This document shows positions 788-14,509 of a stretch of 16,095 bases of DNA, piece after piece. Below the pieces are notes generated by a model that did not search any database, had not been told where the DNA came from, and was given only the letters and a program-made list of their open reading frames with translations. Positions within the stretch are counted from its first letter, which is position 1. Each line of letters begins with the position of its first letter. The DNA is from an uncultured Vogesella sp. (GTDB lineage: Bacteria; Pseudomonadota; Gammaproteobacteria; Burkholderiales; Chromobacteriaceae): positions 1-16,095 of the forward strand of contig CAMLGD010000057.1 in the NCBI GenBank assembly GCA_946479405.1, written 5' to 3'. The translations under genes were made by a program, and so were the position numbers.

Positions 788-978
788 GGCGCGTTCTCCG
801 GCTGTTCATCGTCAACAGCAGTTCAGCAAGGCCTGTGCCAGTGGCCGGCAGCAAAAAAACATTCAAGCTGGCGGGATTTTGCCCCGAAATAAGGCATGCG
901 CATGGGCTGCCACGATACGGGCGTCATGCTGGTGCGCGATGCCCCTGTTTGGCTCATGGTGTTGTCCACTGCGGCAGC

Positions 979-1008
979 TTGTCACTGTGGAATGTGAGCT
1001 CGTATATT
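979..1008 (+). promoter_or_regulatory. Sigma70-like promoter for the membrane diguanylate cyclase gene
   Basis: TTGTCA at 979-984 and TATATT at 1003-1008 are separated by 18 bases. The expected transcription start is near 1015, only about 14 bases before the predicted start codon at 1029, so the transcript would have a very short leader. No convincing Shine-Dalgarno sequence precedes 1029, which fits a near-leaderless message or a slightly later start such as 1041 or 1089. Confidence 0.5.
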
Positions 1009-1028
1009 GATGCCTTGTTGCTATCGAA

Positions 1029-2642
1029 ATGCCACTTCCCATGCATTCAGCTTTGAGCCGTACCCCTACCGCCAGCAGCGCGGTGCCCATGGCGAACGGC
1101 TTTTACCAGCCATTACCGCTAACGGTGTTGTTGACGCCATCACGCGGGCGCTGGCAGCTGGCGCTGGCCTGGCTGCTGTCGCTGGCGGCCTGCCTGTGGC
1201 TGGGCGTGGTGCAGCTGTATGGCGGCTGGTATGGCTATAGCGTGAGTTATGGCGGGCTGTCGTTTGTGGTCAGCATCTACCCGCCGTTGACCATCGCCAC
1301 CTTGTGGGTGCTGTGGTTCGGTTACGCCTGGGGTGCCAGCCTGGCCTATCTCTCCACGCTGCTGGTTGCCTTTCTGTCCGGCCTGTCACCCGGCTGGGCG
1401 CTGCTGTTTGCCTTTGCCAACCCGCTGGGGCTGCTGGTGATGGCGCTGGTGTACCAGCATGTGAATGTGCGTTACGTGCCGTCGTCGCTGGCGTCCTTGC
1501 TGTTCTTCGTCACCATCTGCTTTATTTCTGCGGTTTCCAGCGCCACCGGCTCCTTCATCTGGAGTTACAGCAACAAGCTGTCGGCGATGGGCGCATTTGC
1601 GGTGTGGCAGGGCTGGTGGTCCGGCAATTTCCTGCAAAGCATTACCACCTGCGGTCCGTTATTGCTGCTGACACCGTGGTTGCTGCGCTGGCGGCAGCAA
1701 CGTTGGCCGCAGGCTGCGGCCAAGGCGCCGTTGCAGCCGCGCTGGGCGCTGCTAGTGGCGCTGACATCGCTGGGCGGGGTGTTGGCTTTCTTGTGGCTAT
1801 CGTTTCTGCTGGCCGACCGCAGTGTGATGACCATGGGTGGCGACAGCTCCGGTGCCTGGCAACAGCGCGCGCTGCTGTATCGCGATTCGGCGATGTCAGT
1901 GTACTGGGTGCTGTCGGTGCTGCTGCTGGCGCTGGTGTTCCTTGGCTACCGCTTTTTCATGCAGCGCACGCTGCAGCTCAAGCTGGCCGCGGAGCGGGTG
2001 GCCTACGAGCGTGATCTGGCGCTGCGCCGTCAGGGCGAAGCCGAGGTGGCGCGCAATGCCTTGCACCAGCTCAACCTGGAGTTGGCCGCCCGCATGAGCG
2101 AGGTGGAGCAACTGCAGGCGCAACTGCGCGAACAGGCCAGCCGCGATCCGCTGACCGGCTTGTACAACCGCCGCTATCTGCATCAGCGGCTGCCGCAGCT
2201 GTTGCAGCGCGCGCAGCGCGGCGGGCAGGCATTGTGCGTGGTGCTGATCGATCTGGACCACTTCAAGGCGGTGAACGATCAGCACGGCCACGCCAGCGGC
2301 GATGCGGTGCTCAAGCTGTTTGCCGGCCTGTTTGCCGGCTTGCTGCAGCCGGAGGACATCGTTGCCCGCTATGGTGGAGAAGAGTTCTGCCTGGTGTTGC
2401 CGCAGCGCTCCTTGGGCGAGGTGGACGCGCTGCTGCGGGCGCTGCAGGCGGCTTACAGTGGCAGCCGCCTGGCGTGTGCCAGCGGTGAGCTGTACGGCTT
2501 GACCTTTTCCGCCGGCATCGCGCTGGCGCAAGGCGGGCAGGATAGCGAGGACAGCCTGCTGCAACAGGCGGATGCGGCGCTGTACCAGGCCAAGGCGGCG
2601 GGGCGCAACAGCTGGCGCCAGTATCTGCCGGTGGTGGCCTAG
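1029..2642 (+). CDS. Membrane-anchored GGDEF diguanylate cyclase with MASE1-like sensor region
   Basis: The 537-residue protein has a hydrophobic N-terminal half with about eight membrane segments (roughly residues 42-310, containing WQGWWSGNFLQS near 193-204) that resembles MASE1-type integral membrane sensors. A probable coiled coil follows (315-372) and then a complete GGDEF domain beginning DPLTGLYNRR (373-382), with active-site motif GGEEF at 449-453. GGDEF enzymes condense two GTP into cyclic di-GMP, and the intact motif predicts activity. The allosteric inhibition site RxxD, expected five residues before GGEEF, reads QPED (440-443), so product inhibition is probably lost. The start at 1029 has no clear ribosome binding site; 1041 and 1089 are in-frame alternatives. 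A terminator follows at 2670-2699, so the gene is monocistronic. The signal sensed is unknown. Confidence 0.9.
   Translation: MPLPMHSALSRTPTASSAVPMANGFYQPLPLTVLLTPSRGRWQLALAWLLSLAACLWLGVVQLYGGWYGYSVSYGGLSFVVSIYPPLTIATLWVLWFGYAWGASLAYLSTLLVAFLSGLSPGWALLFAFANPLGLLVMALVYQHVNVRYVPSSLASLLFFVTICFISAVSSATGSFIWSYSNKLSAMGAFAVWQGWWSGNFLQSITTCGPLLLLTPWLLRWRQQRWPQAAAKAPLQPRWALLVALTSLGGVLAFLWLSFLLADRSVMTMGGDSSGAWQQRALLYRDSAMSVYWVLSVLLLALVFLGYRFFMQRTLQLKLAAERVAYERDLALRRQGEAEVARNALHQLNLELAARMSEVEQLQAQLREQASRDPLTGLYNRRYLHQRLPQLLQRAQRGGQALCVVLIDLDHFKAVNDQHGHASGDAVLKLFAGLFAGLLQPEDIVARYGGEEFCLVLPQRSLGEVDALLRALQAAYSGSRLACASGELYGLTFSAGIALAQGGQDSEDSLLQQADAALYQAKAAGRNSWRQYLPVVA
1700..1711 (+). repeat. Copy of dispersed 12-mer ASGTTGGCCGCA (ACG variant), inside a CDS
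   Basis: This is an exact ACGTTGGCCGCA within the diguanylate cyclase gene, at the codons for Arg-Trp-Pro-Gln after the last sensor helices. It is half of a perfect inverted repeat: TTGGCCGCA at 1703-1711 and TGCGGCCAA at 1715-1723, with a 3-base loop. Confidence 0.75.
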
Positions 2643-2669
2643 CGTGCTGCCGCTGGCCGGTGCCTTCCA

Positions 2670-2699
2670 CCCGCTGCCCGGCAGCGGGTTTTGTTTTTT
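2670..2699 (+). terminator. Rho-independent terminator after the membrane diguanylate cyclase
   Basis: An 8-bp stem CCCGCTGC / GCAGCGGG (2670-2677 and 2681-2688) with a 3-base loop is followed by TTTTGTTTTTT. It lies 28 bases after the stop codon. Confidence 0.9.
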
Positions 2700-2716
2700 G
2701 GATGCCGGTGGCAACA

Positions 2717-2728
2717 AGGTTGGCCGCA
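2717..2728 (+). repeat. Copy of dispersed 12-mer ASGTTGGCCGCA (AGG variant)
   Basis: This exact AGGTTGGCCGCA lies between two convergent terminators, 3' of the diguanylate cyclase and 3' of azoR. It is preceded by A, so it also matches the longer AAGGTTGGCCGCA shared with three other copies. Confidence 0.8.
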
Positions 2729-2755
2729 AGCGCCGGCTGGCGGCGACTGCGGACA

Positions 2756-2781
2756 CAAAAATGCCCCGCACGGGCGGGGCA
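2756..2781 (-). terminator. Rho-independent terminator of azoR
   Basis: Read on the minus strand, an 8-bp stem TGCCCCGC / GCGGGGCA (2774-2781 and 2762-2769) with a 4-base loop is followed by a T tract (complement of 2757-2761). It lies about 60 bases downstream of the azoR stop. Confidence 0.85.
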
Positions 2782-2839
2782 CAAGCAGACAGAGGAGAGA
2801 GTAGCCGCGGCAGGGACTGGCCCGGCCGCGTCAGGCACA

Positions 2840-3442
2840 TCAGGCGGCGGCGATGGCGGCCTTGGCGGCAGTCAGTGCCGCTTCGCGGGCATCACCACCC
2901 ATGGCCACGCCTTCGGCGCGGATGAACTGCACATCGCTGATGCCGAGGAAGCCCAGCACGGTCTTCAGGTAGTCTTCCTGGAAGTCCATCTGCTGGCCTT
3001 GTTCGTTGCTGTACACGCCGCCGCGGGACGACACCACGTACACCTTCTTGCCGCCAGCCAGGCCTACCGGGCCGTTTTCGGTGTACTTGAAGGTGCGGCC
3101 GGCTACGGCCACGCGGTCGATCCAGGCCTTCAGTTGCGACGGGATGGAGAAGTTGTACATCGGCGCGCCGATGATCAGGATTTCGGCGGCCAGGAATTCA
3201 CCGATCAGCTGTTCGCTGCGGGCTGCTTCCTTGCGTTGCAGCTCGCTCCAGTCCGCCTGCTCGGTAAAGGCGGCGCCGAGTATCTCGCCGGACAGGTGCG
3301 GAATCTCCTGCTGTGCCAGATCGTAACGAATCACTTCGGTCTTGCCGTGACGCGCTTGCAGAGTGTCGACCAGGGCCTGGGTCAGGCCACGGGATACCGA
3401 GTTGGCGGCGAGGATGCTGGAATCAATGTGCAGGATTTTCAT
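2840..3442 (-). CDS. azoR: FMN-dependent NADH-azoreductase
   Basis: The 200-residue protein is a full-length flavodoxin-like member of the AzoR/AcpD family, which works as an FMN homodimer in the cytoplasm and reduces azo compounds and quinones with NAD(P)H. Visible family features are the FMN-phosphate loop HIDSSILAANSVS near the N-terminus (serines 9, 15, 17), the flavin-contacting PMYNFSIPSQLKAW (94-107), and VVSSRGGVY (136-144). The start at 3442 is supported by CGGAG placed 7 bases upstream. It is transcribed divergently from a LysR-type regulator 123 bp away, the common arrangement for azoreductase and quinone-stress genes, so that regulator is the likely controller of this gene. A strong terminator follows at 2756-2781. 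Physiological substrate is more likely quinones than dyes, by inference from the family. Confidence 0.93.
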   Translation of the reverse strand: MKILHIDSSILAANSVSRGLTQALVDTLQARHGKTEVIRYDLAQQEIPHLSGEILGAAFTEQADWSELQRKEAARSEQLIGEFLAAEILIIGAPMYNFSIPSQLKAWIDRVAVAGRTFKYTENGPVGLAGGKKVYVVSSRGGVYSNEQGQQMDFQEDYLKTVLGFLGISDVQFIRAEGVAMGGDAREAALTAAKAAIAAA

Positions 3443-3500
3443 GGTGCGGCTCCGTTGGGGGGTATGTGCCGCGCACTGCGGCGATGGGTGTACTTTATGT

Positions 3501-3510
3501 TTGTTACCAA
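3501..3510. promoter_or_regulatory. Possible LysR-type operator between azoR and the regulator gene
   Basis: TTGTTACCAA is a near-palindrome (8 of 10 positions match its reverse complement TTGGTAACAA). It lies in the 123-bp divergent intergenic region, about 55-65 bases from each start codon. TAAAAT at 3527-3532 could be a -10 element for the regulator gene, but no well-spaced -35 was found. It is suggestive only. Confidence 0.3.
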
Positions 3511-3565
3511 TCTGGCACTAGTCGGCTAAAATCGGATTCATTGTTCTACTGGTGGGATAATTGCC

Positions 3566-4504
3566 ATGCAGGACCTGAATGATCTGCTGTTCTTTGCCAA
3601 GGTGGTGGAGCACGGCGGCTTCAATGCCGCCAGTCGCCAGCTGGGCATTCCCAAGTCGCGGCTGTCGCGGCGGGTGGCCGAGCTGGAGGCCCGCATCGGC
3701 GTGCGGCTGCTGCAGCGCACTACGCGGCGGCTGGCGCTGACCGAGGTCGGCGCGCAGTACTACCAGCACTGCCAGGCGATGCTGGCCGAGGCCGAGGCGG
3801 CAGAGGAAACCATCGCCCGCCATACCGCCGAGCCGCGCGGGCTGGTGCGCGTCAGCTGCCCGGAGCTGCTGGCCAAGTCGCTGCTGTCCAGCGTGCTGCC
3901 GGAATTCATGGCGCGTTACCCGCAGGTGCGTATCGTGCTGGAAGTGACCGGCCGCCGCGTCGATCTGATCAACGACGGTATCGACGTGGCACTGCGCGTG
4001 CGGCAAAAACTGGACGACAGCGCCAGTGTGGTGGCGCGGGCGCTGTCGCAAAGCGAAAGCGCACTGGTGGCCAGCCCGGCGTTGATTGCGCAACTGGGCG
4101 TACCGCAGCAACCGGGGGCGCTGGCCGGCTGGCCGGCGCTGGTGATGAGCCGTCCGGACGGCCGTGCCGAGTGGCCGCTGCTGGACGAGGTGGGGCAGCT
4201 GTACAAGGTGGACATCCCGGCGCCACGGCTGATGACCGACGACCTGCTAGTGCTGCGCGAAGCGGCGATTGCCGGCAGCGGGGTGGCGCTATTACCGCTG
4301 ATGGTATGCCACGATGCGCTGGCTGATGGCCGCTTGCAGCGGCTGCTGCCCGGCTACAGCACGCCGGACGGCATTCTGCACCTGGCTTTCACTGGCCGCC
4401 GCCACCTGATCCCGGCAGTGCGCGCCTTTATCGATTTTCTGGTGGATACCGTGCCGTCGCGGCTGGCCAGCAGCATGGTGCAGGTGACGGCGTGCCCGTC
4501 GTAG
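3566..4504 (+). CDS. LysR-family transcriptional regulator
   Basis: The 312-residue protein has the standard LysR length and plan. The N-terminal winged helix-turn-helix covers about residues 3-62 (FFAKVVEHGGFNAASRQLGI, then SRLSRRVAELEARIGVRLLQ). A linker helix follows to about 90, then a periplasmic-binding-protein-like effector domain starting PRGLVRVSCPEL and running to the end. GGTGGGA precedes the start at 3566. Divergent placement from azoR suggests that it controls that gene, probably in response to quinone or electrophile stress, and also itself. The sequence belongs to the broad subgroup of LysR proteins linked to oxidoreductases; the effector cannot be predicted. The final 20 residues diverge from the usual ending, and no clear intrinsic terminator follows. 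Confidence 0.92.
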   Translation: MQDLNDLLFFAKVVEHGGFNAASRQLGIPKSRLSRRVAELEARIGVRLLQRTTRRLALTEVGAQYYQHCQAMLAEAEAAEETIARHTAEPRGLVRVSCPELLAKSLLSSVLPEFMARYPQVRIVLEVTGRRVDLINDGIDVALRVRQKLDDSASVVARALSQSESALVASPALIAQLGVPQQPGALAGWPALVMSRPDGRAEWPLLDEVGQLYKVDIPAPRLMTDDLLVLREAAIAGSGVALLPLMVCHDALADGRLQRLLPGYSTPDGILHLAFTGRRHLIPAVRAFIDFLVDTVPSRLASSMVQVTACPS

Positions 4505-4570
4505 ACGTGTCTCGGACTGTCGACAGCAGTACGCACTACTGTGCGTCAGGCAATTTGCGCTGCCTGCCAC

Positions 4571-4598
4571 CATGCCAGGGCATTCCTGCCCTATCATG
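4571..4598. other. Hairpin between the LysR gene and the mgtC-like gene
   Basis: CATG CC AGGGCA TTCC TGCCCT AT CATG forms a 6-bp stem with a 4-base loop, extended by CATG/CATG across a 2x2 internal loop. There is no T tract, so it is not a standard terminator. It could be an RNA structure 3' of the regulator gene or 5' of mgtC. The rest of 4505-4714 shows no confident promoter. Confidence 0.35.
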
Positions 4599-4714
4599 AC
4601 TATGACAAGTCTTGATTAATTCTTTTGCAAATAGAGGTGTGCGCTAAGCGGCCGCGAGCCTGGCTGCAGCCGCATATCGTCTGCCATGCATTCCTTCACA
4701 GGTTGGCGTTCGTC

Positions 4715-5464
4715 ATGAACATGATTTCCTTGCAGAACCTTGCTGACTACTGGTCGCTACAGCAGATCACGACCAATCTGATCGTGTTCCTGAATCTGCT
4801 GGGCGCACTGCTGCTCGGCATGGTGGTCGGTTACGAACGTACTTATCACGGCCGGGCCGCGGGGATGCGCACCTATGGGCTGGTGTGCATGGCCGCCGCC
4901 GCCCTGACCTCGATTGTCGGCTTTCCGGAACTATGGTTTGGCGGCCATGCGCCCAATGTCGCCATGGCTGACCCGACGCGCGTCATCCAGGGCATCGTCA
5001 CCGGTATTGGTTTTCTGGGCGCCGGCATGATCATGAAGGACGGGCTCAACATCAGCGGCCTGACCACCGCCGCCTCGATCTGGGCCTCGTCCGCCATCGG
5101 CGTGCTGGTGGGGGTGGGGTTCTACGCCTCGGCGATACTGCTTACCGGCTTGTCCGTGGTGTGCATGATGTGGATGTCGCGGCTGGAGCAGTGGCTGCCC
5201 ACGCATCAGGCGGTGGCGGTGAGCATCACTTTCAAGAGTGGTGCCATGCCGCGACGGGAGCTGCTGCAGGCGACCATGCGAGAGCTGGGTTATGGCATTG
5301 CCTGGGGCTCGCTGGCCATCAAGTGCCATGGCGATACGGTGGAGTGGCATTTTGTCGCCGTGGCGCACAGCAAGCAGCGCGGCAGTGTCTTGCCGGATAT
5401 TTCGCTGGCGCTAAGCAGCCACCAGGCGGTGGAAAGATTCTCGCTGTCCTATGCACGCAACTGA
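4715..5464 (+). CDS. MgtC/SapB family membrane protein
   Basis: Starting at the ATG at 4715, the product is 249 residues. An N-terminal hydrophobic domain of about five helices (22-152) carries the family signature GMVVGYERTYHGRAAGMRT (35-53), GIGFLGAGMI (97-106) and GLTTAASIWASSAIGVLVGVG (about 115-135). A soluble C-terminal domain (about 160-249) follows. MgtC proteins support growth in low magnesium, and in Salmonella MgtC acts on the F1Fo ATP synthase and on virulence; the role of non-pathogen homologues is poorly known. The frame is open back to a TTG at 4625, but AGGTTGG lies suitably before 4715 and family alignments start near MNMI-like residues, so the later start is preferred. No mgtA/mgtB transporter is adjacent. 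Inner-membrane location is expected. Confidence 0.85.
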   Translation: MNMISLQNLADYWSLQQITTNLIVFLNLLGALLLGMVVGYERTYHGRAAGMRTYGLVCMAAAALTSIVGFPELWFGGHAPNVAMADPTRVIQGIVTGIGFLGAGMIMKDGLNISGLTTAASIWASSAIGVLVGVGFYASAILLTGLSVVCMMWMSRLEQWLPTHQAVAVSITFKSGAMPRRELLQATMRELGYGIAWGSLAIKCHGDTVEWHFVAVAHSKQRGSVLPDISLALSSHQAVERFSLSYARN

Positions 5465-5491
5465 GTCACCGACGGGCACGGCTGCAGCCCA

Positions 5492-5503
5492 AGGTTGGCC
5501 GCA
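5492..5503 (+). repeat. Copy of dispersed 12-mer ASGTTGGCCGCA (AGG variant)
   Basis: This exact AGGTTGGCCGCA starts 28 bases after the mgtC-like stop codon. It is followed by GCGC, as is the copy at 2717 after one extra A. Confidence 0.8.
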
Positions 5504-5530
5504 GCGCTAACGCCAGCCCGTTCCTTCTGT

Positions 5531-5562
5531 ATGCCGGCTGCCGATGCCGGGCAGGCCGGCAT
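5531..5562. other. Large GC-rich hairpin downstream of the mgtC-like gene
   Basis: ATGCCGGC (5531-5538) pairs with GCCGGCAT (5555-5562). TGCC (5539-5542) pairs with GGCA (5550-5553) around one bulged base. The 12-bp stem is followed only by CACTTTG, so termination efficiency is doubtful. Confidence 0.45.
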
Positions 5563-5640
5563 CACTTTGCCCGCGCGCCGGTAGGTGCGTCTGGTTGCCG
5601 TGCCATGGACAAGGGCTGTCGGCTGGGCTACTGTCCTGCG

Positions 5641-5670
5641 CGCGGCGCGGCGCGGCGCGGCGCGGCGCGG
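5641..5670. repeat. Pentanucleotide tandem repeat (CGCGG)6
   Basis: There are six uninterrupted copies of CGCGG, ending 43 bases upstream of the predicted start of the PAS-GGDEF gene. The tract lies in its 5' untranslated region or promoter. Such tracts can change copy number by strand slippage. Five-base units would shift any reading frame passing through, including the in-frame extension that begins with GTG at 5585. Confidence 0.8.
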
Positions 5671-5713
5671 CAGGCGCCGTATCTCGGCAACTTCTACTCG
5701 GGGAGACGTCTGC

Positions 5714-6661
5714 ATGTCCGACGTGAGCGAATTAAGCAGCGACAATGCGGTTTACAAGACCTTGCTGGAATCGACCAGGGCTATTCCCTGGAAAATCGAC
5801 TGGGCCAGCATGCAGTTTGCCTATATCGGCCCGCAGATCGAGCCGCTGCTGGGCTGGAGCCAGGACAGCTGGGTCAGCGCCAATGACTGGGCGATGCGTA
5901 TCCACCCGGACGACCGCGACTACGTGGTCAACTTCTGCATTGCGCAATCACAGGCCGGTGTCGACCACGAGGCCGACTACCGGGCGCTGACCAGAGACAA
6001 CGGCTATGTGTGGGTCCGCGATGTGGTGCACGTGGTGCGCAACAGCGCCGGCGAGGTGGAAGCGCTGATCGGCTTCATGTTCGATATCAGCGAACGCAAG
6101 AAGACCGAGGAAAAGCTGCTGGCGCTGCAAAAGGAGCTGGAAGCCTTGTCGTTCAAGGATGGTCTGACCGGCATTGCCAACCGCCGTCGTTTTGACGCCT
6201 GCCTGGAACGGGAATGGGATGCTGCCCGTAGCAGTGCGCTGCCGTTGTCGCTGATCCTGCTCGATGTGGATTTCTTCAAGCAATACAATGACCTGTACGG
6301 CCATATCCAGGGTGACAAGTGTCTGACGGACATCGCGCAGACACTAAATCTGGCGGTAACCGGCCAGCGTGATCTGGTGGCGCGCTACGGCGGCGAGGAG
6401 TTTGTGCTCATCCTGCCGGAGACCGATGCCAACGGCGCACAGAAAGTCGCCGAGCGCTGCCAGCGCCTGATTGAAAAACTGGCCATCACCCACCAGTACT
6501 CGCCGCACGGCCAGCAGGTAACGCTCAGCATCGGGGTGGGCACGCTGTTTCCCGCTGCCGGCAGCAGCTCGGCCGACTTTGTCCAGGCCGTGGACCGGCA
6601 GCTGTACGTGGCCAAGCAGCGCGGTCGCAACCGGATCGAGGTCGTACCGCCGCTGGCATGA
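5714..6661 (+). CDS. PAS-GGDEF diguanylate cyclase (soluble)
   Basis: The 315-residue cytoplasmic protein has a PAS domain of the PAS_3 type (about 12-127, with MRIHPDDRDYV and the C-terminal FMFDISERKKTEEKL), a short signalling helix (128-146), and a full GGDEF domain starting FKDGLTGIANRRRFDACL with GGEEF at 226-230. It should make cyclic di-GMP from GTP under control of a small-molecule or redox signal at the PAS domain. The RxxD inhibitory site is absent: the matching residues read GQRD (217-220). The start at 5714 is favoured by GGGGAG 8 bases upstream. The frame is open back to 5585, but that extension would translate the CGCGG tract. No transmembrane segment is seen. No partner gene is evident, and the hydratase 119 bp downstream is functionally unrelated. 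Confidence 0.92.
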   Translation: MSDVSELSSDNAVYKTLLESTRAIPWKIDWASMQFAYIGPQIEPLLGWSQDSWVSANDWAMRIHPDDRDYVVNFCIAQSQAGVDHEADYRALTRDNGYVWVRDVVHVVRNSAGEVEALIGFMFDISERKKTEEKLLALQKELEALSFKDGLTGIANRRRFDACLEREWDAARSSALPLSLILLDVDFFKQYNDLYGHIQGDKCLTDIAQTLNLAVTGQRDLVARYGGEEFVLILPETDANGAQKVAERCQRLIEKLAITHQYSPHGQQVTLSIGVGTLFPAAGSSSADFVQAVDRQLYVAKQRGRNRIEVVPPLA

Positions 6662-6691
6662 CCTGCCGGGCCAGTACCCGATCCGTACTAT

Positions 6692-6724
6692 GCAAGGTTG
6701 GCCGCGCATTGCGGCCAACCTTGC
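6692..6724. repeat. Perfect palindrome built from two facing copies of the 12-mer
   Basis: GCAAGGTTGGCCGC (6692-6705) and GCGGCCAACCTTGC (6711-6724) are perfect 14-bp inverted arms around the loop GCATT. The right arm contains an exact minus-strand 12-mer (6710-6721). The left arm differs at the last base only (6695-6706). It starts 31 bases after the diguanylate cyclase stop. No T tract follows on either strand, so it is not a classical intrinsic terminator. Confidence 0.85.
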
Positions 6725-6780
6725 CAAACCTGGCTTGCGGCGGTAGAACAGCCGCTTTCTTTTTGCCCTGGAGTCCCACC

Positions 6781-7542
6781 ATGCACGCCGATGACATCCG
6801 CTCTGCCGCCATCACCCTTGCGGCCCGCCGCCTCAGCGGAGAATCCGGCCCCTTGCTGGCCGGCGAGCAGGCGCCGCAGACGCTGGCCGACGCCCTGGCG
6901 ATTCAGCAGGGAGTGCGCGAGCTAATGGGCAATAGCGTGGCCGGCTGGAAGTGCGGGCTGCCGGGCGAGGGCCGGGTGGTGCTGGCGCCGATCTACGGCA
7001 GTACCGTGTTTGATGCCTCGCCGTGCCCGGTATGGGTGCGTGGCGGCGTGGTGCGCACCGAGCCGGAGCTGGCGTTCGTGTTCGCCGCCGGCCTGCCGGC
7101 GCGCGACCTGGCTTACAGCCAGGACGAGGTGCTGGCCGCCATCAGCAGTGTGCGGCTGGCGCTGGAGCTGATCGACAGCCGTTTCGAAGCTGAGCCGAAG
7201 CCATCCTTCCTGCAATCGCTGGCTGATGGCCTGGTGAACCAGGGCTTGCTGCTGGGGCCGCATGTCGACAAGGCGCAGGCGCTGGCGGCCGGCACCCTCG
7301 CCATCCGCGTGCAGCAGGGCGAGCGCGACGAGTTGCTGGACGGTGTGCATCCGGCCGGCGAACCGCTGGCGCCGCTGCTGTGGCTGGTGGAATACCTGCG
7401 CCAGCGCGGCGAGGGCCTGCTGCCGGGGCAGGTGGTGATTACCGGTTCCTATGCCGGCGTGGTGGATCTGTTGCCGGTGGTGCCGGCAACGTTGCAGTTT
7501 GGCGATTTGGGTGTGCTGACCGTGGAATTCAGCGCGCGTTGA
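6781..7542 (+). CDS. 2-keto-4-pentenoate hydratase / FAH-family enzyme (MhpD-like)
   Basis: The 253-residue protein has the length and motifs of the MhpD hydratase/decarboxylase branch of the fumarylacetoacetate hydrolase fold. GWKCGL (55-60) corresponds to the conserved lysine region. The divalent-metal ligands are visible as TEPELAF (E94 and E96) and LELIDSRF (E129). VVITGSYAG (218-226) is near the C-terminal substrate loop. Relatives hydrate 2-hydroxypenta-2,4-dienoate in aromatic meta-cleavage pathways, or decarboxylate 4-oxalocrotonate. No other aromatic catabolism gene is adjacent, so the substrate is open. GGAG stands 8 bases before the ATG at 6781; the frame is open further upstream through the palindrome, but that extension has no support. 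It appears to be a single gene. Confidence 0.85.
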   Translation: MHADDIRSAAITLAARRLSGESGPLLAGEQAPQTLADALAIQQGVRELMGNSVAGWKCGLPGEGRVVLAPIYGSTVFDASPCPVWVRGGVVRTEPELAFVFAAGLPARDLAYSQDEVLAAISSVRLALELIDSRFEAEPKPSFLQSLADGLVNQGLLLGPHVDKAQALAAGTLAIRVQQGERDELLDGVHPAGEPLAPLLWLVEYLRQRGEGLLPGQVVITGSYAGVVDLLPVVPATLQFGDLGVLTVEFSAR

Positions 7543-7621
7543 GCGTGCGCCTTGTACCGTATCGCCGGCAGCGCCCGGTGGCGGCACTCCCGCTCGTGTT
7601 GGCTGCAGTCCGTAACGGATG

Positions 7622-7709
7622 TGCGGCCAACGTTTTGGTGGCGGTAGCACGGGCAGGGTAAGGCTCGACTGTTTGGTGACACCACTACCGCAGGGGCACG
7701 TTGGCCGCA
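7622..7709. repeat. Long inverted pair of 12-mer repeats with inner complementary arms
   Basis: A minus-strand copy (7622-7633, TGCGGCCAACGT) faces a plus-strand copy (7698-7709, ACGTTGGCCGCA). Inside them GCGGTAG (7641-7647) is complementary to CTACCGC (7685-7691), so the whole 88 bases can fold into one long interrupted hairpin, a layout like REP/BIME elements. It lies 3' of the hydratase and upstream of the metN promoter. Confidence 0.75.
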
Positions 7710-7822
7710 GCTGCCTTTGGATGGGCTTTATTCTGTATACAGTATGTAAATAGCAGAAAATTCTATAAGCCAAGCACTTTACCGGTAGCTGTTATATGGC
7801 TACTATTTGTGCATCGCAGCGA

Positions 7823-7851
7823 TTGACACAAACGAACGGATGCTGTTCAAT
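7823..7851 (+). promoter_or_regulatory. Sigma70-like promoter of metNIQ
   Basis: A perfect TTGACA (7823-7828) is followed, after a 17-base spacer, by TTCAAT (7846-7851), a 4 of 6 match to the -10 consensus. Transcription would start near 7858. Two overlapping inverted repeats, AATTG-TGAT-CAATT (7849-7862) and ATCAA-TTAC-TTGAT (7856-7869), cover the start site and could bind a repressor. The start lies about 13 bases before the riboswitch-like element. Confidence 0.55.
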
Positions 7852-7870
7852 TGTGATCAATTACTTGATT

Positions 7871-7917
7871 TAACGCCGATTTGATACAGCTTGCGGGCGT
7901 AAAACTGCTAAAGCGTG
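7871..7917 (+). ncRNA. SAM-II-like riboswitch aptamer in the metNIQ leader
   Basis: The layout matches the SAM-II (SAM_alpha) class. P1 is ACGCC (7873-7877) pairing with GGCGT (7896-7900). The loop opens with GATTTGA (7878-7884) and ends with GCTTGC (7889-7894). After P1 come AAAA and then GCTAAAGC (7907-7914). GCTT of the loop (7889-7892) can pair with AAGC (7911-7914), giving the H-type pseudoknot typical of the class. From family knowledge, GATTTG, GCTTGC and GCTAAA are the conserved blocks and SAM is the ligand. Placement before a methionine importer fits. It was recognised by eye, without a covariance-model search. Confidence 0.75.
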
Positions 7918-7929
7918 GAGATTGTCATC

Positions 7930-7974
7930 TTGAATGATCTTCCAGATTTTCGAATTCGAAGATTCCATGCTTAA
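7930..7974 (+). CDS. Possible 14-codon leader peptide gated by the riboswitch
   Basis: GGAG (7917-7920) lies 3 bases after the pseudoknot. Nine bases further a TTG (7930) opens a 14-codon frame, [14 protein letters not shown], whose TAA (7972-7974) overlaps the first bases of the terminator stem. An alternative ATG at 7934 opens a 48-codon frame that runs through the terminator and into metN (stop at 8078-8080). Either way, translation from this site would interfere with terminator folding. There is no homology or codon evidence that the peptide itself matters. Confidence 0.3.
7937..7962 (+). other. Inverted repeat between aptamer and terminator
   Basis: ATCTTC (7937-7942) and GAAGAT (7957-7962) can form a stem whose loop contains the palindrome TTCGAATTCGAA partly overlapping its right arm. 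It could shape or compete with the downstream terminator. It does not overlap the terminator arms, so it is not an obvious antiterminator on its own. Confidence 0.35.
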
Positions 7975-8006
7975 AGCCCGCCAGCACACCAACGGCGGGC
8001 TTTATT
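7973..8006 (+). terminator. Intrinsic terminator in the metNIQ leader (attenuator)
   Basis: AAAGCCCGCC (7973-7982) and GGCGGGCTTT (7994-8003) form a perfect 10-bp stem with an 11-base loop, followed by ATT. It ends about 15 bases before metN and well after the predicted promoter, so it can only act as an attenuator for metNIQ. The trailing T tract is short (TTTATT), which suggests conditional rather than complete termination. Confidence 0.7.
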
Positions 8007-8021
8007 GCTTTGGAGTCCCGG

Positions 8022-8759
8022 ATGATTCACCTCAAGAATGTGCACAAGCGCTTCAAGAAGCCCGATGGCGGCTGGTTTGATGCGGTGCGTGACACCACCC
8101 TCCACATCAAGGAAGGGGAGATTTTCGGCTTGATCGGTTTTTCCGGCGCCGGCAAATCCACCCTGCTGCGCCTGATCAATCTGCTGGAACGCCCGGATAG
8201 CGGCGAAGTGAATGTCGATGGACAGGATCTAACCGTACTGTCCGCCCGCGAGCTGCGTCGTGCCCGCCAGAATATCGGCATGGTGTTTCAGCAGTTCAAT
8301 CTGATGGCCAACCGCACCGTGGCCGACAACGTGGCCTTTCCGCTGGAGATCGCCGGCTGGAGCCGCGCCGAAATCGAGCAGCGCGTGGCGGAATGCCTGG
8401 ACATCGTCGGTCTGGCCGACCGTGCCGGCCACTATCCGGCGCAGTTGTCCGGCGGCCAGAAGCAGCGTGTTGGCATCGCCCGCGCGCTGGCACCGCGCCC
8501 GCACGTGATTCTGGCCGATGAGCCGACCTCGGCGCTGGACCCGAAAACCACGCAATCCATTCTCGACTGCCTGCAGGACATCAATAGCCGCTTTGGCGTC
8601 ACCGTGGTGATCGTCACCCACGAGATGCATGTGGTGCGTTCCATCTGCCATCGCGCCGCGCTGCTGGATGCCGGCGAGGTGGTGGAGACCCTGCTGGTGG
8701 AAAACAAGACAGTGGCGGCGACTTCCGCGCTGGCCAAATCCCTGCTGGAGGCCGCATAA
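8022..8759 (+). CDS. metN: Methionine ABC importer ATP-binding protein, short form
   Basis: The 245-residue ATPase has Walker [10 protein letters not shown] (39-47), Q-loop Q90, signature LSGGQ (142-146), Walker B VILADE (162-167) and switch histidine H200. It powers uptake of L- and D-methionine with MetI and MetQ at the inner membrane. E. coli MetN has about 343 residues, ending in an ACT-like NIL/C2 domain that binds methionine and inhibits transport. Here the protein stops after the ABC domain, as in the Neisseria protein, so this feedback control is absent. The start at 8022 is chosen over the TTG at 8010 because GGAG lies 6 bases before it. The stop codon abuts the metI ATG directly. 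Expression is probably governed by the SAM-II-like leader. Confidence 0.93.
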
Positions 8760-9446
8760 ATGGATGAGCTGACTTTTGCCCAGGCTGTAAGCAATGTGCT
8801 GGAGATGTCGCCGGAAATCTGGCAGGCCAGCCTGGAAACCGGACTGATGCTGGCCATCGGCCTGACCACGGCGATCCTGCTGGGCGGCCCGCTGGGTGTG
8901 CTGCTGTACCTGACACAACCGGGCCAGCTGTTTGCGCATCGTGCCGTCAACGGCGTGCTGGGCTGGCTGGTAAACCTGGTGCGTTCCTTCCCGTTCATCA
9001 TCCTGATGGTATCGCTGGTGCCGCTGACGCGCGTGCTGGTGGGGTCCACCATCGGCCCGATCGCTGCCGCCGTGCCGCTGTCGTTTGCCGCCATCCCGTA
9101 CTTTGCCCGCCTGGTGGAGCAGACCCTGCGCGAGATTCCACGTGGGGTAGTGGAGGCCGCCGAGGCGATGGGTGCCAGCCCGGCGCAGATCATTTTCAAG
9201 GTGCTGATCAATGAAGGCCGTGCCGGTCTGATTTCTAGTCTCACCATTCTGACCATCAGCTTCCTCAGCTACTCGGCAGTAGCCGGCGTGGTGGGTGGTG
9301 GCGGCATTGGCGACCTGGCTATCCGCTACGGCTACTACCGCTTCCAGACCGAGGTAATGGTGGCGATGGTGCTGCTGCTGGTGGTGATCGTGCAGATCAT
9401 CCAGCTGGTCGGCAATCGCCTGGCGGCACGACTGGATAAACGTTAA
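8760..9446 (+). CDS. metI: Methionine ABC importer permease
   Basis: The 228-residue inner-membrane protein has about five membrane helices (roughly 23-51, 65-92, 98-118, 158-185, 197-217). It carries the BPD permease EAA loop VVEAAEAMGASPAQIIFKVLI (begins near 130), which docks on MetN. The opening ETGLMLAIGLTTAILLGGPLG and the SYSAVAGVVGGGGIGDLAIRYGY-like region are typical of MetI. It starts immediately after the metN stop, with GGAGG 8 bases upstream inside the end of metN, so translation of the two is likely coupled. metQ follows 63 bp later in the same operon. Confidence 0.95.
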   Translation: MDELTFAQAVSNVLEMSPEIWQASLETGLMLAIGLTTAILLGGPLGVLLYLTQPGQLFAHRAVNGVLGWLVNLVRSFPFIILMVSLVPLTRVLVGSTIGPIAAAVPLSFAAIPYFARLVEQTLREIPRGVVEAAEAMGASPAQIIFKVLINEGRAGLISSLTILTISFLSYSAVAGVVGGGGIGDLAIRYGYYRFQTEVMVAMVLLLVVIVQIIQLVGNRLAARLDKR

Positions 9447-9455
9447 CCCCCGACC

Positions 9456-9475
9456 GGGGCGGGTAGATGCGCCCC
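9456..9475 (+). other. Hairpin in the metI-metQ gap
   Basis: GGGGCG (9456-9461) and CGCCCC (9470-9475) form a 6-bp stem with an 8-base loop and no T tract. Such a structure can protect the downstream metQ message or limit upstream decay, raising binding protein over transporter. That role is an inference from other ABC operons. Confidence 0.4.
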
Positions 9476-9509
9476 ATTACAAAGAGATCACTCTCACAAG
9501 GAGCTAATA

Positions 9510-10319
9510 ATGCGTCGTTTTGTTCTGAAATCGCTGGCGGTTGCCGCCCTGGGTCTGACTGTTGCGGCCAACGTGCAGGCGGCTGATCCGGCCAAGAAAG
9601 AAATCGTCATCGGCACCACCGTGGGTGACTTTGGCGACATGGTCAAGCAGTCCATCAAGCCGATTCTGGAAAAGCAGGGCTACAGCGTGAAGCTGGTGGA
9701 ATTTACCGACTACGTACGTCCGAACCTGGCGCTGCAGGAAGGCTCGCTGGACGTGAACGTGTTCCAGCACAAGCCGTACCTGGACAACTTTGCCAAAGAG
9801 CACAAGCTGAGCCTGAAGGAAGTGTTCCAGGTGCCGACCGCACCGCTGGGCATCTATCCGGGCAAGCTGAAGTCGCTGAAGGATGTGAAGCCGGGTAGCA
9901 CCGTATCGGCCCCGAACGATCCGTCCAACTTCGCCCGCGCGCTGGTGATGTTCAATGACCTGGGCTGGATCAAGCTGAAGAAGGGCATTAACCCGCTGAC
10001 CGCCTCCGAGCGCGACATCGACGTAAACCTGAAGCAGGTCAAGATCGTACCGCTGGAAGCCGCGCAGCTGCCGCGCTCGCGCAACGATGTGGACTTCGCG
10101 GTAATCAACGGCAACTACGCCACCAGCTCCGGCATCAAGCTGACCGAAGCCGTGTTCCAGGAAAAGAGCTACGCCTACGTGAACTGGGGCGCGATGCGTG
10201 CTGGTGATGTGGCCAAGCCGTGGGCCAAGGACGTGATCGCCGCCTACAACTCCAAGGACTTCCGCGCCTGGGCAACCCAGAAGTACGCTGGCTACAAGCT
10301 GCCGGCCGCCTGGAAGTAA
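9510..10319 (+). CDS. metQ: Methionine-binding protein of the MetNIQ importer
   Basis: The 269-residue protein belongs to the NlpA/MetQ family (EIVIGTTVGDFGDM near the mature N-terminus, then DYVRPNLALQEGSLDVNVFQHKPYLDNF). It delivers methionine to MetNI in the periplasm. The signal peptide MRRFVLKSLAVAALGLTVAANVQA (residues 1-24) ends with a signal peptidase I site VQA|AD. There is no lipobox, and in fact no cysteine in the whole protein, whereas E. coli and Neisseria MetQ are lipoproteins. It is therefore predicted to be freely soluble in the periplasm. A strong AAGGAG lies 9 bases before the start. Its distance from metI (63 bp) and the intergenic hairpin suggest separate tuning of its level. 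A terminator follows at 10449-10473. Confidence 0.93.
   Translation: MRRFVLKSLAVAALGLTVAANVQAADPAKKEIVIGTTVGDFGDMVKQSIKPILEKQGYSVKLVEFTDYVRPNLALQEGSLDVNVFQHKPYLDNFAKEHKLSLKEVFQVPTAPLGIYPGKLKSLKDVKPGSTVSAPNDPSNFARALVMFNDLGWIKLKKGINPLTASERDIDVNLKQVKIVPLEAAQLPRSRNDVDFAVINGNYATSSGIKLTEAVFQEKSYAYVNWGAMRAGDVAKPWAKDVIAAYNSKDFRAWATQKYAGYKLPAAWK
9563..9574 (-). repeat. Copy of dispersed 12-mer ASGTTGGCCGCA (ACG variant), inside metQ
   Basis: TGCGGCCAACGT on the plus strand is an exact minus-strand copy. It overlaps the codons for Val-Ala-Ala-Asn-Val near the end of the MetQ signal peptide, a region tolerant of sequence change. Confidence 0.7.
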
Positions 10320-10400
10320 AGCGCTGTAGTGGCATGGCGGGTGGTGGCGTGTGTGTCGCGTACAACAGGGAGCCATCGCCCGGTCATGTCGGCTGCTGCT

Positions 10401-10412
10401 TGCGGCCAACCT
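10401..10412 (-). repeat. Copy of dispersed 12-mer ASGTTGGCCGCA (AGG variant)
   Basis: TGCGGCCAACCT on the plus strand is an exact minus-strand copy, extended by T to the 13-base AAGGTTGGCCGCA form. It lies between the metQ stop and the metQ terminator. Confidence 0.8.
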
Positions 10413-10448
10413 TTTCCTTGAAACACTCCTGGCATTCAAGGCTTCTCC

Positions 10449-10473
10449 GCGGACTTCGGTCCGCTTTTTTTTT
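10449..10473 (+). terminator. Rho-independent terminator of metNIQ
   Basis: GCGGAC (10449-10454) and GTCCGC (10459-10464) enclose a stable TTCG tetraloop and are followed by nine T residues. It lies 130 bases after the metQ stop. Confidence 0.92.
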
Positions 10474-10522
10474 GGATGGGGTGGGTGCTTGCTTGCGGTC
10501 ACGTGCACGCTGCGCAAGACGC

Positions 10523-10547
10523 AAAAAAGCCCGCCGAGGCGGGCTTT
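10523..10547 (-). terminator. Rho-independent terminator of fadD
   Basis: On the minus strand AGCCCGCC (complement of 10538-10545) and GGCGGGCT (complement of 10528-10535) form the stem, followed by a T tract (complement of 10523-10528). It starts about 20 bases after the fadD stop. The stem sequence is nearly the same as the metN leader terminator. Confidence 0.88.
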
Positions 10548-10565
10548 GCATATCGGTGGTATGCC

Positions 10566-12239
10566 TCAGGCTTTTACTTCGGCATCGCGCAGCGCCCGGC
10601 GCAGGATCTTGCCGACGTTGGTCTTTGGTAGCTCGTCACGGAATTCGACGAACTTCGGCACCTTGTAGCCAGTGAGATTTTCGCGGCAGTGGTGGATGAT
10701 GTCCTGCTCGGTGAGGCTCTTGTCCTTGCGTACCACGAACACTTTCACCACTTCGCCGGATTTGTCGTCCGGAATGCCGATGCAGGCTACTTCCAGTACA
10801 CCCGGGTGGAGGGCCACCACGTCTTCGATCTCGTTCGGGTACACGTTGAAGCCGGAGACCAGGATCATGTCTTTCTTGCGATCCACCAGCTTTACAAAGC
10901 CTTCCGGGGTCAGCATCGCCATGTCGCCGGTGGCGAGGAAGCCTTGGCTGTCGATGACCTTGGCGGTTTCGTCCGGGCGCTGCCAGTAACCCTTCATCAC
11001 CTGCGGGCCGCGGATGCATAGTTCGCCGGATTCGCCGATACCCAGCGGCTGGCCGGTGCTGTCGCGGATCTCGATGTCGGTAGACGGAATCGGCAGGCCG
11101 ATGGTGCCGTTGTATTCCTTCATGTCCAGCGGGTTGATGCAGGCGGCCGGGCTGGTCTCGGTCAAGCCGTAGGCTTCGATCAGCGGGGTGCCGGTGATCT
11201 GCTTCCACTTTTCTGCCACCGCCTTTTGCACCGCCATGCCGCCGCCCAGCGCCAGGCGCCAGCTGGAGAAGTCCACGGTCTTGAAGTCGGGGTTGTTGAG
11301 CAGGGCGTTGAACAGGGTGTTGACACCGGTAATGGCGGTGACCTTGTACTTTTTCAGCTCCTTGACGAAACCGGGAATGTCGCGCGGATTGGTGATCAGT
11401 ACGCTCAGTGCGCCTACCTCGGTGAATACCATCAGGTTGGCCGTCAGGCAGAAGATGTGATACAGCGGCAGCGCGGTGACGATCACTTCCTGGCCTTCGC
11501 GCACGCTGTGCTTGATCCATTCGCCGGCCTGCAGCATGTTGGCCACGATGTTCTTGTGCGTCAGCATCGCACCCTTGGAGACGCCGGTGGTGCCACCGGT
11601 GTACTGCAGGAAGGCGATGTCGTCATGGCCGAGCGCAACCGGCGTGTAGGGCCTGGCGGCGCCTAGTTTCAAGGTGTCGTTGAAGCGGACGTGGCCGGCG
11701 ATGTGCCACGGCGGCACCATCTTCTTTGCCTTGCGTACCACGAAATTGACGATCAGGCCCTTGGGGAAGCCGAGCATGTCGCCGATGCTGGCGACGATCA
11801 CGTTCTTCACCGGGCTGCGCGGTAGCACCTGTTCCAGTACGTTGGCAAAGTTTTCCAGGATCAGGATGGTGTCGACACCGGCATCCTTCAGCTGGTGTTC
11901 CAGTTCGCGCGGGGTATAGAGCGGATTGACGTTCACCACGGTGCAGCCGGCGCGCAGGATGCCGAATACGGCCACCGGATACTGCAGCAGGTTGGGCATC
12001 ATGATGGCGACGCGGGCGCCTTTGGCCAGTTTCAACTCGTGCTGCAGATAAGAGGCAAACCGGGCGGACAGGGTGTCCAGCTCTCCATAGCTGAGTACCT
12101 TGTCCATGCACGCCAACGCCGGGCGCTCGCGGAACTTGGTCGCGCTGCGTTCAAATACTTCGGTGACCGACTGGAATTCGTTGATGTCGATCTCGTGGGC
12201 AATGCCAGGCTGGTAATTTTTGAGCCAGATCTTTTCCAT
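10566..12239 (-). CDS. fadD: Long-chain fatty acid-CoA ligase
   Basis: The 557-residue adenylate-forming enzyme activates fatty acids to acyl-CoA (ATP to AMP plus pyrophosphate) at the cytoplasmic face of the inner membrane for beta-oxidation or phospholipid synthesis. Motifs are the P-loop YTGGTTGVSKG (213-223), YGLTETSP (357-364), TGD (437-439), the hinge region DRKKDMILVSGFNVYPNEIE (453-472, the FACS signature), and the catalytic lysine in NVGK (K544). The length equals bacterial FadD. The frame extends to 12395, but the ATG at 12239 is preferred: it opens MEKIWLKNYQPGI as in other FadD proteins and has GGAGAA 10 bases upstream. TATAGT (complement of 12322-12327) could be a -10 element, though no good -35 is seen. 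It is a single gene with its own terminator. Confidence 0.93.
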   Translation of the reverse strand: MEKIWLKNYQPGIAHEIDINEFQSVTEVFERSATKFRERPALACMDKVLSYGELDTLSARFASYLQHELKLAKGARVAIMMPNLLQYPVAVFGILRAGCTVVNVNPLYTPRELEHQLKDAGVDTILILENFANVLEQVLPRSPVKNVIVASIGDMLGFPKGLIVNFVVRKAKKMVPPWHIAGHVRFNDTLKLGAARPYTPVALGHDDIAFLQYTGGTTGVSKGAMLTHKNIVANMLQAGEWIKHSVREGQEVIVTALPLYHIFCLTANLMVFTEVGALSVLITNPRDIPGFVKELKKYKVTAITGVNTLFNALLNNPDFKTVDFSSWRLALGGGMAVQKAVAEKWKQITGTPLIEAYGLTETSPAACINPLDMKEYNGTIGLPIPSTDIEIRDSTGQPLGIGESGELCIRGPQVMKGYWQRPDETAKVIDSQGFLATGDMAMLTPEGFVKLVDRKKDMILVSGFNVYPNEIEDVVALHPGVLEVACIGIPDDKSGEVVKVFVVRKDKSLTEQDIIHHCRENLTGYKVPKFVEFRDELPKTNVGKILRRALRDAEVKA

Positions 12240-12424
12240 GGCGTTTGGCTTCTCCGTCGTGTTGGATTTATCGCTGCCCTCTCTCGTTATGACGAACTGC
12301 GTGTGGAGGACAGTCAGGCTTACTATAGGTAATTCTTGTAAAACGCCCGTTTGTTTGGCGCGCGACAACTCTACCCGATGTCGTCGTTGGTGCAAAGCGC
12401 AGGCCCGGTGCGCGGCCCGGAGCT

Positions 12425-12456
12425 TGGTTTTCTTTTGCCGTAGAATGGTTTATAAT
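12425..12456 (+). promoter_or_regulatory. Promoter of the rimP-nusA-infB operon
   Basis: A perfect TATAAT at 12451-12456 is the clearest -10 box in the window. The best upstream match, TTGGTT (12425-12430), is 20 bases away, longer than ideal; TTTTCT at 12428-12433 has a 17-base spacer but is a poor -35. The expected start is near 12463, giving a leader of about 50 bases that contains an intrinsic terminator. Confidence 0.6.
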
Positions 12457-12471
12457 CGCGGCATTTTAGGG

Positions 12472-12499
12472 ATGGGCGGGTTTCGCCCATTTTTTATTT
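12472..12499 (+). terminator. Leader terminator (attenuator) of the rimP-nusA-infB operon
   Basis: ATGGGCG (12472-12478) and CGCCCAT (12484-12490) form a 7-bp stem with loop GGTTT, followed by TTTTTATTT. No plus-strand gene ends upstream, since fadD runs the other way. This strong terminator therefore lies only between the predicted promoter and rimP. It fits an attenuator, and in E. coli NusA is known to regulate its own operon through leader terminators. Confidence 0.75.
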
Positions 12500-12514
12500 C
12501 TGGAATTGATGCCC

Positions 12515-12940
12515 ATGGATGTACGTTTGCTGCTCGAGAACACGCTGCCCGGTATGGGCTATGAGCTTGTTGATTTTGAATTGACCCCTGGGGGTGGCTT
12601 TCGCGTGTTCATGGACAAGCCGGGCGGCATTACCGTTGAAGACTGCGTGGCGGTGAGCAATCACCTGACGCGCTTGTTCATGGTCGAAAACGTCGATTAC
12701 GACCGCCTTGAAGTGTCCTCGCCCGGCTTGGACCGCCCGCTGAAAAAGGAAGCGGACTATGTTCGCTTCAACGGCAGTCTGGCCAAGATCCGTACCCGTC
12801 TGCCCATCGACAACCAGAAGCGTTTCTTGGGGCGGATCGTCGGTATTGCCGAAGGGGTGGTGTCACTGGAAGTGGACGGCCGTACTGTTGCCATTCCCCT
12901 GTCGAATATCGACAAGGCCCGGCTGGAGCCGGAGTTCTGA
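12515..12940 (+). CDS. rimP: Ribosome maturation factor RimP
   Basis: The 141-residue protein assists assembly of the 30S ribosomal subunit in the cytoplasm. The N-terminal domain has the hallmark stretches [17 protein letters not shown] (7-23) and [20 protein letters not shown] (30-49), followed by [17 protein letters not shown] (about 63-79). The SH3-like C-terminal domain carries the FLGRIVG region. Family length is about 140-155. Starts at 12506 (TTG) and 12509 (ATG) are in frame and cannot be ruled out; MDVRLLLE is chosen because homologues begin close to this point. It leads the conserved rimP-nusA-infB operon, downstream of the TATAAT promoter and the leader terminator. Confidence 0.94.
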
Positions 12941-12948
12941 TCGTCAGG

Positions 12949-12960
12949 ACGTTGGCCGCA
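12949..12960 (+). repeat. Copy of dispersed 12-mer ASGTTGGCCGCA (ACG variant)
   Basis: This exact ACGTTGGCCGCA sits in the 50-bp rimP-nusA gap inside an operon, immediately followed by TAAAAAAG. A mid-operon position argues against a purely terminator role for the repeat. Confidence 0.8.
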
Positions 12961-12990
12961 TAAAAAAGAATACGAAATTCGGAGGATTGA

Positions 12991-14466: not shown

Positions 14467-14509
14467 CCAGCCGCATATGGAAGATTGCTAGAAGGAATTA
14501 GGAATACGC

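Follow-up and report, generated by a model that had tools for sequence, protein, structure and literature searches.

The window, by which we mean the whole 16,095-nt stretch analysed here, comes from an uncultured Vogesella sp. (assembly GCA_946479405.1, contig CAMLGD010000057.1, positions 1 to 16,095 of the forward strand). Its genes (Table 1) are accompanied by ten copies of a short dispersed motif, which, judging from sequence comparisons, is very probably a self-recognition tag of Vogesella of the DNA uptake sequence (DUS) type with the 10-mer core GTTGGCCGCA. The NusA encoded in the window is 98% identical to that of Vogesella oryzae (L001, genome G001), and in a NusA tree of 37 rows, window included, the window is placed beside V. 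oryzae, the clade also comprising V. alkaliphila and V. fluminis (support 100/99). The DNA identity to V. oryzae is only 86% over the aligned parts, and the window therefore probably derives from another Vogesella species.

Nine of the ten copies match the 12-mer ASGTTGGCCGCA exactly and one (AGGTTGGCCGCG) carries a single mismatch; all lie where the initial annotation had placed them, in its two variants (AGG, four copies; ACG, five copies). Its chance estimate of about 0.01 exact copies per window becomes 0.007 when recomputed from composition, and dinucleotide shuffles of the window (n = 200) gave a mean of 0.34 and a maximum of 3 matches with one mismatch allowed. Seven of the nine exact copies are intergenic, as had been claimed, the exceptions being those at 1700 and 9563, and two sites form inverted pairs (6695/6710 and the wide arrangement 7622/7698). 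The 12-mer as a unit stood only in part. The motif is real, but its actual unit is the 10-mer GTTGGCCGCA, and the bases at -2 and -1 are a mere preference (AG being commonest), so that there is no invariant 12-mer.

Table 1. Putative uptake-tag copies and genes in the window
Feature	Position	Strand	Remarks
Copy ACGTTGGCCGCA	1700..1711	+	Inside GGDEF gene
Copy AGGTTGGCCGCA	2717..2728	+	Between GGDEF gene and azoreductase-like gene; aligned V. oryzae core identical despite differing flanks
Copy AGGTTGGCCGCA	5492..5503	+	28 bp past MgtC family gene
Copy AGGTTGGCCGCG	6695..6706	+	One-mismatch member of inverted pair with 6710
Copy AGGTTGGCCGCA	6710..6721	-	Exact member of inverted pair with 6695; V. 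oryzae core identical
Copy ACGTTGGCCGCA	7622..7633	-	Past the open reading frame 6778-7542; wide inverted arrangement with 7698
Copy ACGTTGGCCGCA	7698..7709	+	Partner of 7622 copy
Copy ACGTTGGCCGCA	9563..9574	-	In metQ, close to its 5' end; V. oryzae core identical
Copy AGGTTGGCCGCA	10401..10412	-	Between convergent metQ and fadD-like gene; V. oryzae core identical
Copy ACGTTGGCCGCA	12949..12960	+	Between rimP and nusA; V. oryzae core identical
GGDEF gene	1029-2642	+	
Flavodoxin-fold azoreductase-like gene	2840-3442	-	
LysR gene	3566-4504		
MgtC family gene	4625-5464		
PAS-GGDEF gene	about 5723-6661		
Open reading frame	6778-7542		No Pfam match at E 1e-8
ATP-binding cassette transporter	8010-10319		With NlpA-family binding protein; read as metN, metI, metQ
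AMP-binding enzyme, fadD-like	10566-12395	-	
rimP, nusA	12506-14466		rimP named by eye; infB-like sequence after (named by eye)

The motif is not restricted to the window, an outcome that the initial annotation had named as refuting. Counts were made in 101 genomes, made up of V. oryzae plus 100 relatives. Copies of the 12-mer number 895 to 1635 in each of 13 of them (V. oryzae, V. alkaliphila, V. fluminis, one metagenome-assembled genome (MAG) and nine others) and 22 or fewer in each of the other 88. V. oryzae has 1196 copies (594 forward, 602 reverse) and 2273 copies of the core GTTGGCCGCA, against 0 and 13 for the reversed patterns. Nor is the motif merely as common as words of matching composition: of the 10-mers occurring at least 15 times in a 354-kb sample of V. 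oryzae, none exceeds its expected count by as large a factor as GTTGGCCGCA (237 copies, 38-fold over an order-4 Markov model), and the remaining words of the top-25 list overlap it or its palindrome. For Neisseria meningitidis 8013, the available text of PMC3868556 gives 1474 copies of its own 12-mer.

Thousands of copies throughout a clade would also suit a chromosome-organisation or recombination site, such as an FtsK-orienting polar sequence (KOPS), Chi or a nucleoid-protein site, and the two strands differ slightly within the first 800 kb of the chromosome of G033, a relative from this clade (262 vs 208 copies, P 0.014). KOPS and Chi are strongly polar, however, and the 12-mer shows no strand bias over whole genomes (519/510 in G033, and as given above for V. 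oryzae), which leaves a polar form of the chromosome-organisation site suggested by the initial annotation unsupported. Moreover, such a site would leave the ComP-type pilin and the dialects described below unexplained, and we consider it highly improbable.

Related words replace the motif in other genera. When 10-mers were ranked in relatives over the roughly 20 kb surrounding nusA, GTTGGCCGAA emerged in Crenobacter oryzisoli, Paludibacterium denitrificans and a MAG labelled Aquitalea, and 20-kb samples of further relatives yielded GTTGGCCGAG. The first of these, the GAA dialect, reaches 579 to 2168 copies in seven of the 101 genomes (G003, G009, G017, G039, G040, G042 and G046; 1851 in P. 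denitrificans), is weak in G006 (183) and has 78 or fewer copies in the others. The GAG dialect GTTGGCCGAG is dense in G041 (1590) and G047 (1940), followed by G003 (165) and then by counts of 92 and fewer. None of the genomes is rich in more than one dialect, G003 being closest to mixed (579 and 165), and a dense DUS-like word without CTG is present in 22 of the 101. For G047 and G041, the encoded ComP-type pilins have identical counterparts in records named Crenobacter cavernae and C. luteus, and the G042 pilin is nearly identical to a record named Gulbenkiania. The 183 copies in G006, a Pseudogulbenkiania MAG, compare with 1104 and 893 in its sisters G039 and G046 and perhaps represent a decaying dialect. 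Possible relics are also seen in G013 and G056 of the P. purpuratum lineage, with 92 and 85 copies of GTTGGCCGAG (reversed controls 21 and 17) and 62 and 45 of GTTGGCCGAA (controls 13 and 11).

All three dialects, the GCA dialect of Vogesella included, read CCG at +6 to +8 and have in common an upstream preference around C-A-A-G at -4 to -1, with the core GTTGGCCGCA most often preceded by CAAG or CAAC; A at +10 is found in the GCA and GAA dialects but not in the GAG dialect. Beyond -4 to -1, flank preferences are weak (e.g., at +11, A in 54% for V. alkaliphila and C in 65% for C. cavernae). An explanation of the ACG copies as halves of a palindrome of overlapping copies was rejected, as it accounts for only 16 of 54 such copies sampled in V. 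oryzae, 18 of the 54 in V. alkaliphila and 0 of 37 in G033; the 20-bp palindrome of two overlapping copies had no exact match in viral_contigs, which is uninformative. On the NusA tree, the seven GCA rows (window included) form one clade (100/99) and the two GAG rows another (100/98), with the GAA rows scattered and word-less rows (Chromobacterium, Aquitalea, P. purpuratum and others) interspersed among motif rows. Presence or absence of a word changes five times on the best tree, three of these changes being forced by supported branches, and gain cannot be distinguished from loss because NusA alone resolves deep forks poorly. The nusA of P. denitrificans (L017) has two stops in its reading, perhaps from a sequencing frameshift.

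The distribution of copies along a chromosome was analysed in the first 800 kb of G033 (7.5 kb masked, simple gene finder), where 355 of the 470 copies are coding on either strand, 114 are intergenic and one is partial. Intergenic bases make up 12% of this sample and the intergenic share of copies is twice that; by comparison, the high intergenic share in the window is partly local. Copy density per kb is 2.09 in convergent spacers, 1.39 in tandem spacers, 0.50 in coding sequence and 0.29 in divergent spacers, so copies favour the 3' ends of genes and spare divergent promoters. Spacing is more even than random (447 loci after merging copies within 40 bp), and density is lower in 5-kb windows of low G+C, for which composition partly accounts. 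This strong preference for convergent and tandem over divergent spacers counts in favour of a transcription terminator or mRNA-stability motif, and the 6695/6710 pair folds into a 14-bp RNA stem, with z -3.8 for one strand and -5.3 for the other. However, no T-run directly follows that stem, folding is unremarkable for 12949 (z 0.85), 10401 (z 0.06) and the wide pair 7622/7698 (z -0.93), and most copies in G033 are within genes. Some neisserial DUS copies are likewise reported to be associated with terminators (PMC3630211, available sections). A role in termination or mRNA stability is very unlikely as the explanation of the motif.

Copies are conserved in place between some pairs of genomes, as measured against 10-mers of the same letters (the genome pairs are not independent). 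Five of the nine exact copies in the window lie in DNA aligned to V. oryzae and all five are conserved (control 31%), as are 2 of 3 aligned to V. alkaliphila (control 26%). From V. alkaliphila to G033, 20 of 38 copies are conserved (control 19%), and 19 of 55 in the reverse direction (20%). With a looser control, 10 of 16 copies around nusA are conserved between V. alkaliphila and V. fluminis (17%), and G033 and V. oryzae give 1 of 3 and 1 of 4. Non-identical alleles differ by substitutions (where few, often at position 10) or by ragged gaps in poorly conserved stretches.

These alleles bear on a third alternative, also raised by the initial annotation, namely a repetitive extragenic palindromic (REP)-like or other dispersed mobile repeat, in which short palindromic elements are spread by a transposase or by copying. 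Inverted pairs within 35 bp do exist (23 among 273 V. oryzae copies and 23 among the 470 of G033) and several copies are intergenic. A REP element is, however, a conserved palindromic unit of about 20-40 bp and extragenic, which the motif is not: its flank preferences extend weakly over about four bases upstream, plus +11 in V. alkaliphila and C. cavernae, and three quarters of the G033 copies (355/470) sit inside genes. In addition, the alleles contain no clean unit insertions between species, and dialects one or two bases apart replace each other between genera. With flanks that show weak preferences close to the core only, this option is unsupported and we regard it as very unlikely.

The initial annotation had proposed looking for minor-pilin uptake genes, and a ComP-like pilin is encoded in all 23 motif genomes searched. 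A profile built from 12 of these pilins ranks the three solved ComP structures first in the PDB, and P0001 and others have a precomputed match to the ComP family profile, Pfam PF16732 (ComP_DUS). By fold (VIA-align) a ComP structure is the best match. The next two ComP structures are in third and eighth place, interspersed with PilV, PilX and other pilins, which means that fold by itself distinguishes ComP from other pilins only partly. ComP of Neisseria (2M3K, 5HZ7, 2NBA) is the closest solved relative by sequence and the best by fold, of the same length class and with a common stretch around ENAxFxExxY...WPxLP. The pilins here, which are putative DNA binders, differ from it in having about 26-30% identity in structural alignments and a strand 1-strand 2 loop that reads N-x-D in 22 of the 23 motif genomes. 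Genes for ComEA and ComEC are present in nearly all these genomes. The first PF16732 match in V. oryzae (L111) was discarded as ComP, since it resembles pilE of a minor-pilin cluster beside a fimT-like gene; a better candidate lies at G001:C22:14336-14737. Two adjacent ComP-like pilin genes, both without the N-x-D loop, were observed at G017:C3:1518681-1519600.

The words resemble the DUS of Neisseriaceae (GCCGTCTGAA and relatives; PMC3630211, available sections) in being 10-12 bp long, in occurring about 1000 or more times per genome on both strands, inside and between genes and as inverted pairs near gene ends, in having dialects one or two bases apart, in A at -2 and often G at -1, and in the accompanying ComP-type pilin. 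They differ in CCG instead of CTG at +6 to +8, in TT at +2/+3, in G at +10 in the C. cavernae/luteus dialect, and in their hosts, which are Vogesella, Crenobacter, Gulbenkiania, Paludibacterium and relatives. In the eight published dialects, CTG and A at +10 are always present and CTG is treated as a conserved, essential core in Neisseria (PMC3630211, available sections); its invariance at +6 to +8 is also reported in PMC12061091. The CTG core is indeed missing here, as first noted, but the motif can be aligned position by position with neisserial DUS, CCG taking the place of CTG. Without any shift, AGGTTGGCCGAA agrees with two neisserial 12-mers in 9 of 12 positions (one of these strings being derived from the text of the paper; P 0.01 in letter permutations over every register and both strands), and the other two dialect words match at 8 of 12 (P 0.09 and 0.06). 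This modest match, together with an orthologous receptor, makes common descent of the CCG words and neisserial DUS likely. A degenerate CTG-DUS pattern used as a positive control in the 101 genomes was dominated by background and is uninformative. The uptake signal sequence (USS) of Pasteurellaceae follows the same principle of a dense short self-tag for uptake with an unrelated word; its receptor is unproven, and the available part of PMC12616744 predicts another minor pilin.

Copy number, strand balance, position and the ComP-type pilin in every motif genome searched support the uptake tag that the initial annotation had listed as one option. The best reading of the words is a set of at least three dialects of a DUS system in Chromobacteriaceae, with CCG replacing CTG; because its core differs, the motif is set apart from the CTG-DUS set and is not counted as a member of it. 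Several observations weigh against an uptake tag. The absence of CTG, essential in Neisseria, is one, and the slight strand difference in the first 800 kb of G033 is another. Copies are conserved no better than expected between V. oryzae and V. alkaliphila (6/19 and 6/20; controls 25% and 22%, not significant) and between V. oryzae and G033 (1/6 each way; control 22%). ComP-like pilins with overlapping scores also occur in 17 searched genomes without the word, and PF16732, rejected as a marker for the word, matches in all 29 genomes tried (28 of them above the cut-off), so that having such a pilin does not by itself distinguish genomes with the word. In P. denitrificans, neither of two aligned ComP-like pilins has the loop motif despite the GAA dialect, and ComEC was not found in G002 and G031. 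Finally, the 800 kb of G033 contain three motif-free gaps longer than 8 kb, with about five expected if random, and the idea that such gaps are all mobile DNA failed: one is partly masked, one contains native chemotaxis genes and only one is clearly a mobile island with defence-like genes (genes in the gaps named by eye). On this island (G033:C1:709041-718383), integrase and transposase genes are found along with genes for an ATPase and a helicase, resembling a defence cluster.

If the motif is an uptake tag, ComP in retractile type IV pili would bind it on free DNA, the pilus would pull the tagged DNA through the outer membrane, and ComEA and ComEC would carry it into the cell, where it could recombine. 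Where uptake favours tagged DNA, a point mutation giving rise to a tag may spread, and tags would accumulate where they are tolerated, such as gene ends, hairpin stems and harmless codons. Changes in ComP may then shift the preferred word and create dialects. More tentatively, and with doubt slightly outweighing confidence, ComP self-tagged uptake may predate the split between Neisseriaceae and Chromobacteriaceae, with GTTGGCCGAA near the ancestral word on the Chromobacteriaceae side and lost in Chromobacterium and Aquitalea, and with CTG and CCG as two readings set by the strand 1-strand 2 loop of ComP.

In the literature found, ComP-read tags are described only from the Neisseria family, with a different core. 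According to the available sections of PMC3630211, none of five genomes on the Chromobacterium side of the split (Laribacter, Lutiella, Pseudogulbenkiania and two Chromobacterium) has an obvious DUS, BLAST detects no ComP in C. violaceum, and DUS arose only once the lineage of C. violaceum had diverged; Vogesella, Crenobacter, Gulbenkiania and Paludibacterium are not mentioned there. In open-licence full texts, preprints excluded and broader queries judged by top-ranked matches, no report of DUS in Vogesella, Paludibacterium or other Chromobacteriaceae was found, and for the word GTTGGCCGCA no paper concerned an uptake tag by title among the matches listed. The dense CCG word in 22 of 101 genomes runs against the published origin and may push back the age of the DUS system. 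It also makes these genomes a natural experiment in the reading of DNA words by a pilin, and renders natural transformability of Vogesella probable.

Other repeats were observed in the relatives. In the 20 kb of L173 (G054:C1:1-20000), words including GAGCTGCCTA and GGCAGTGAAC recur over 50 times and probably belong to a large array of clustered regularly interspaced short palindromic repeats (CRISPR). Over-represented words in L008 and L010 (Aquitalea) and in L015 and L016 (Chromobacterium) resemble palindrome arms (ACAACCGTGG/CACGGTTGTC; ACAATCGCGG/CGCGATTGTC) and might represent REP-like repeats; both genera lack the uptake word. In Deefgea chitinilytica (L032), CGCCTCACGC / AGGCGTGAGG occurs 8-10 times in 21 kb.

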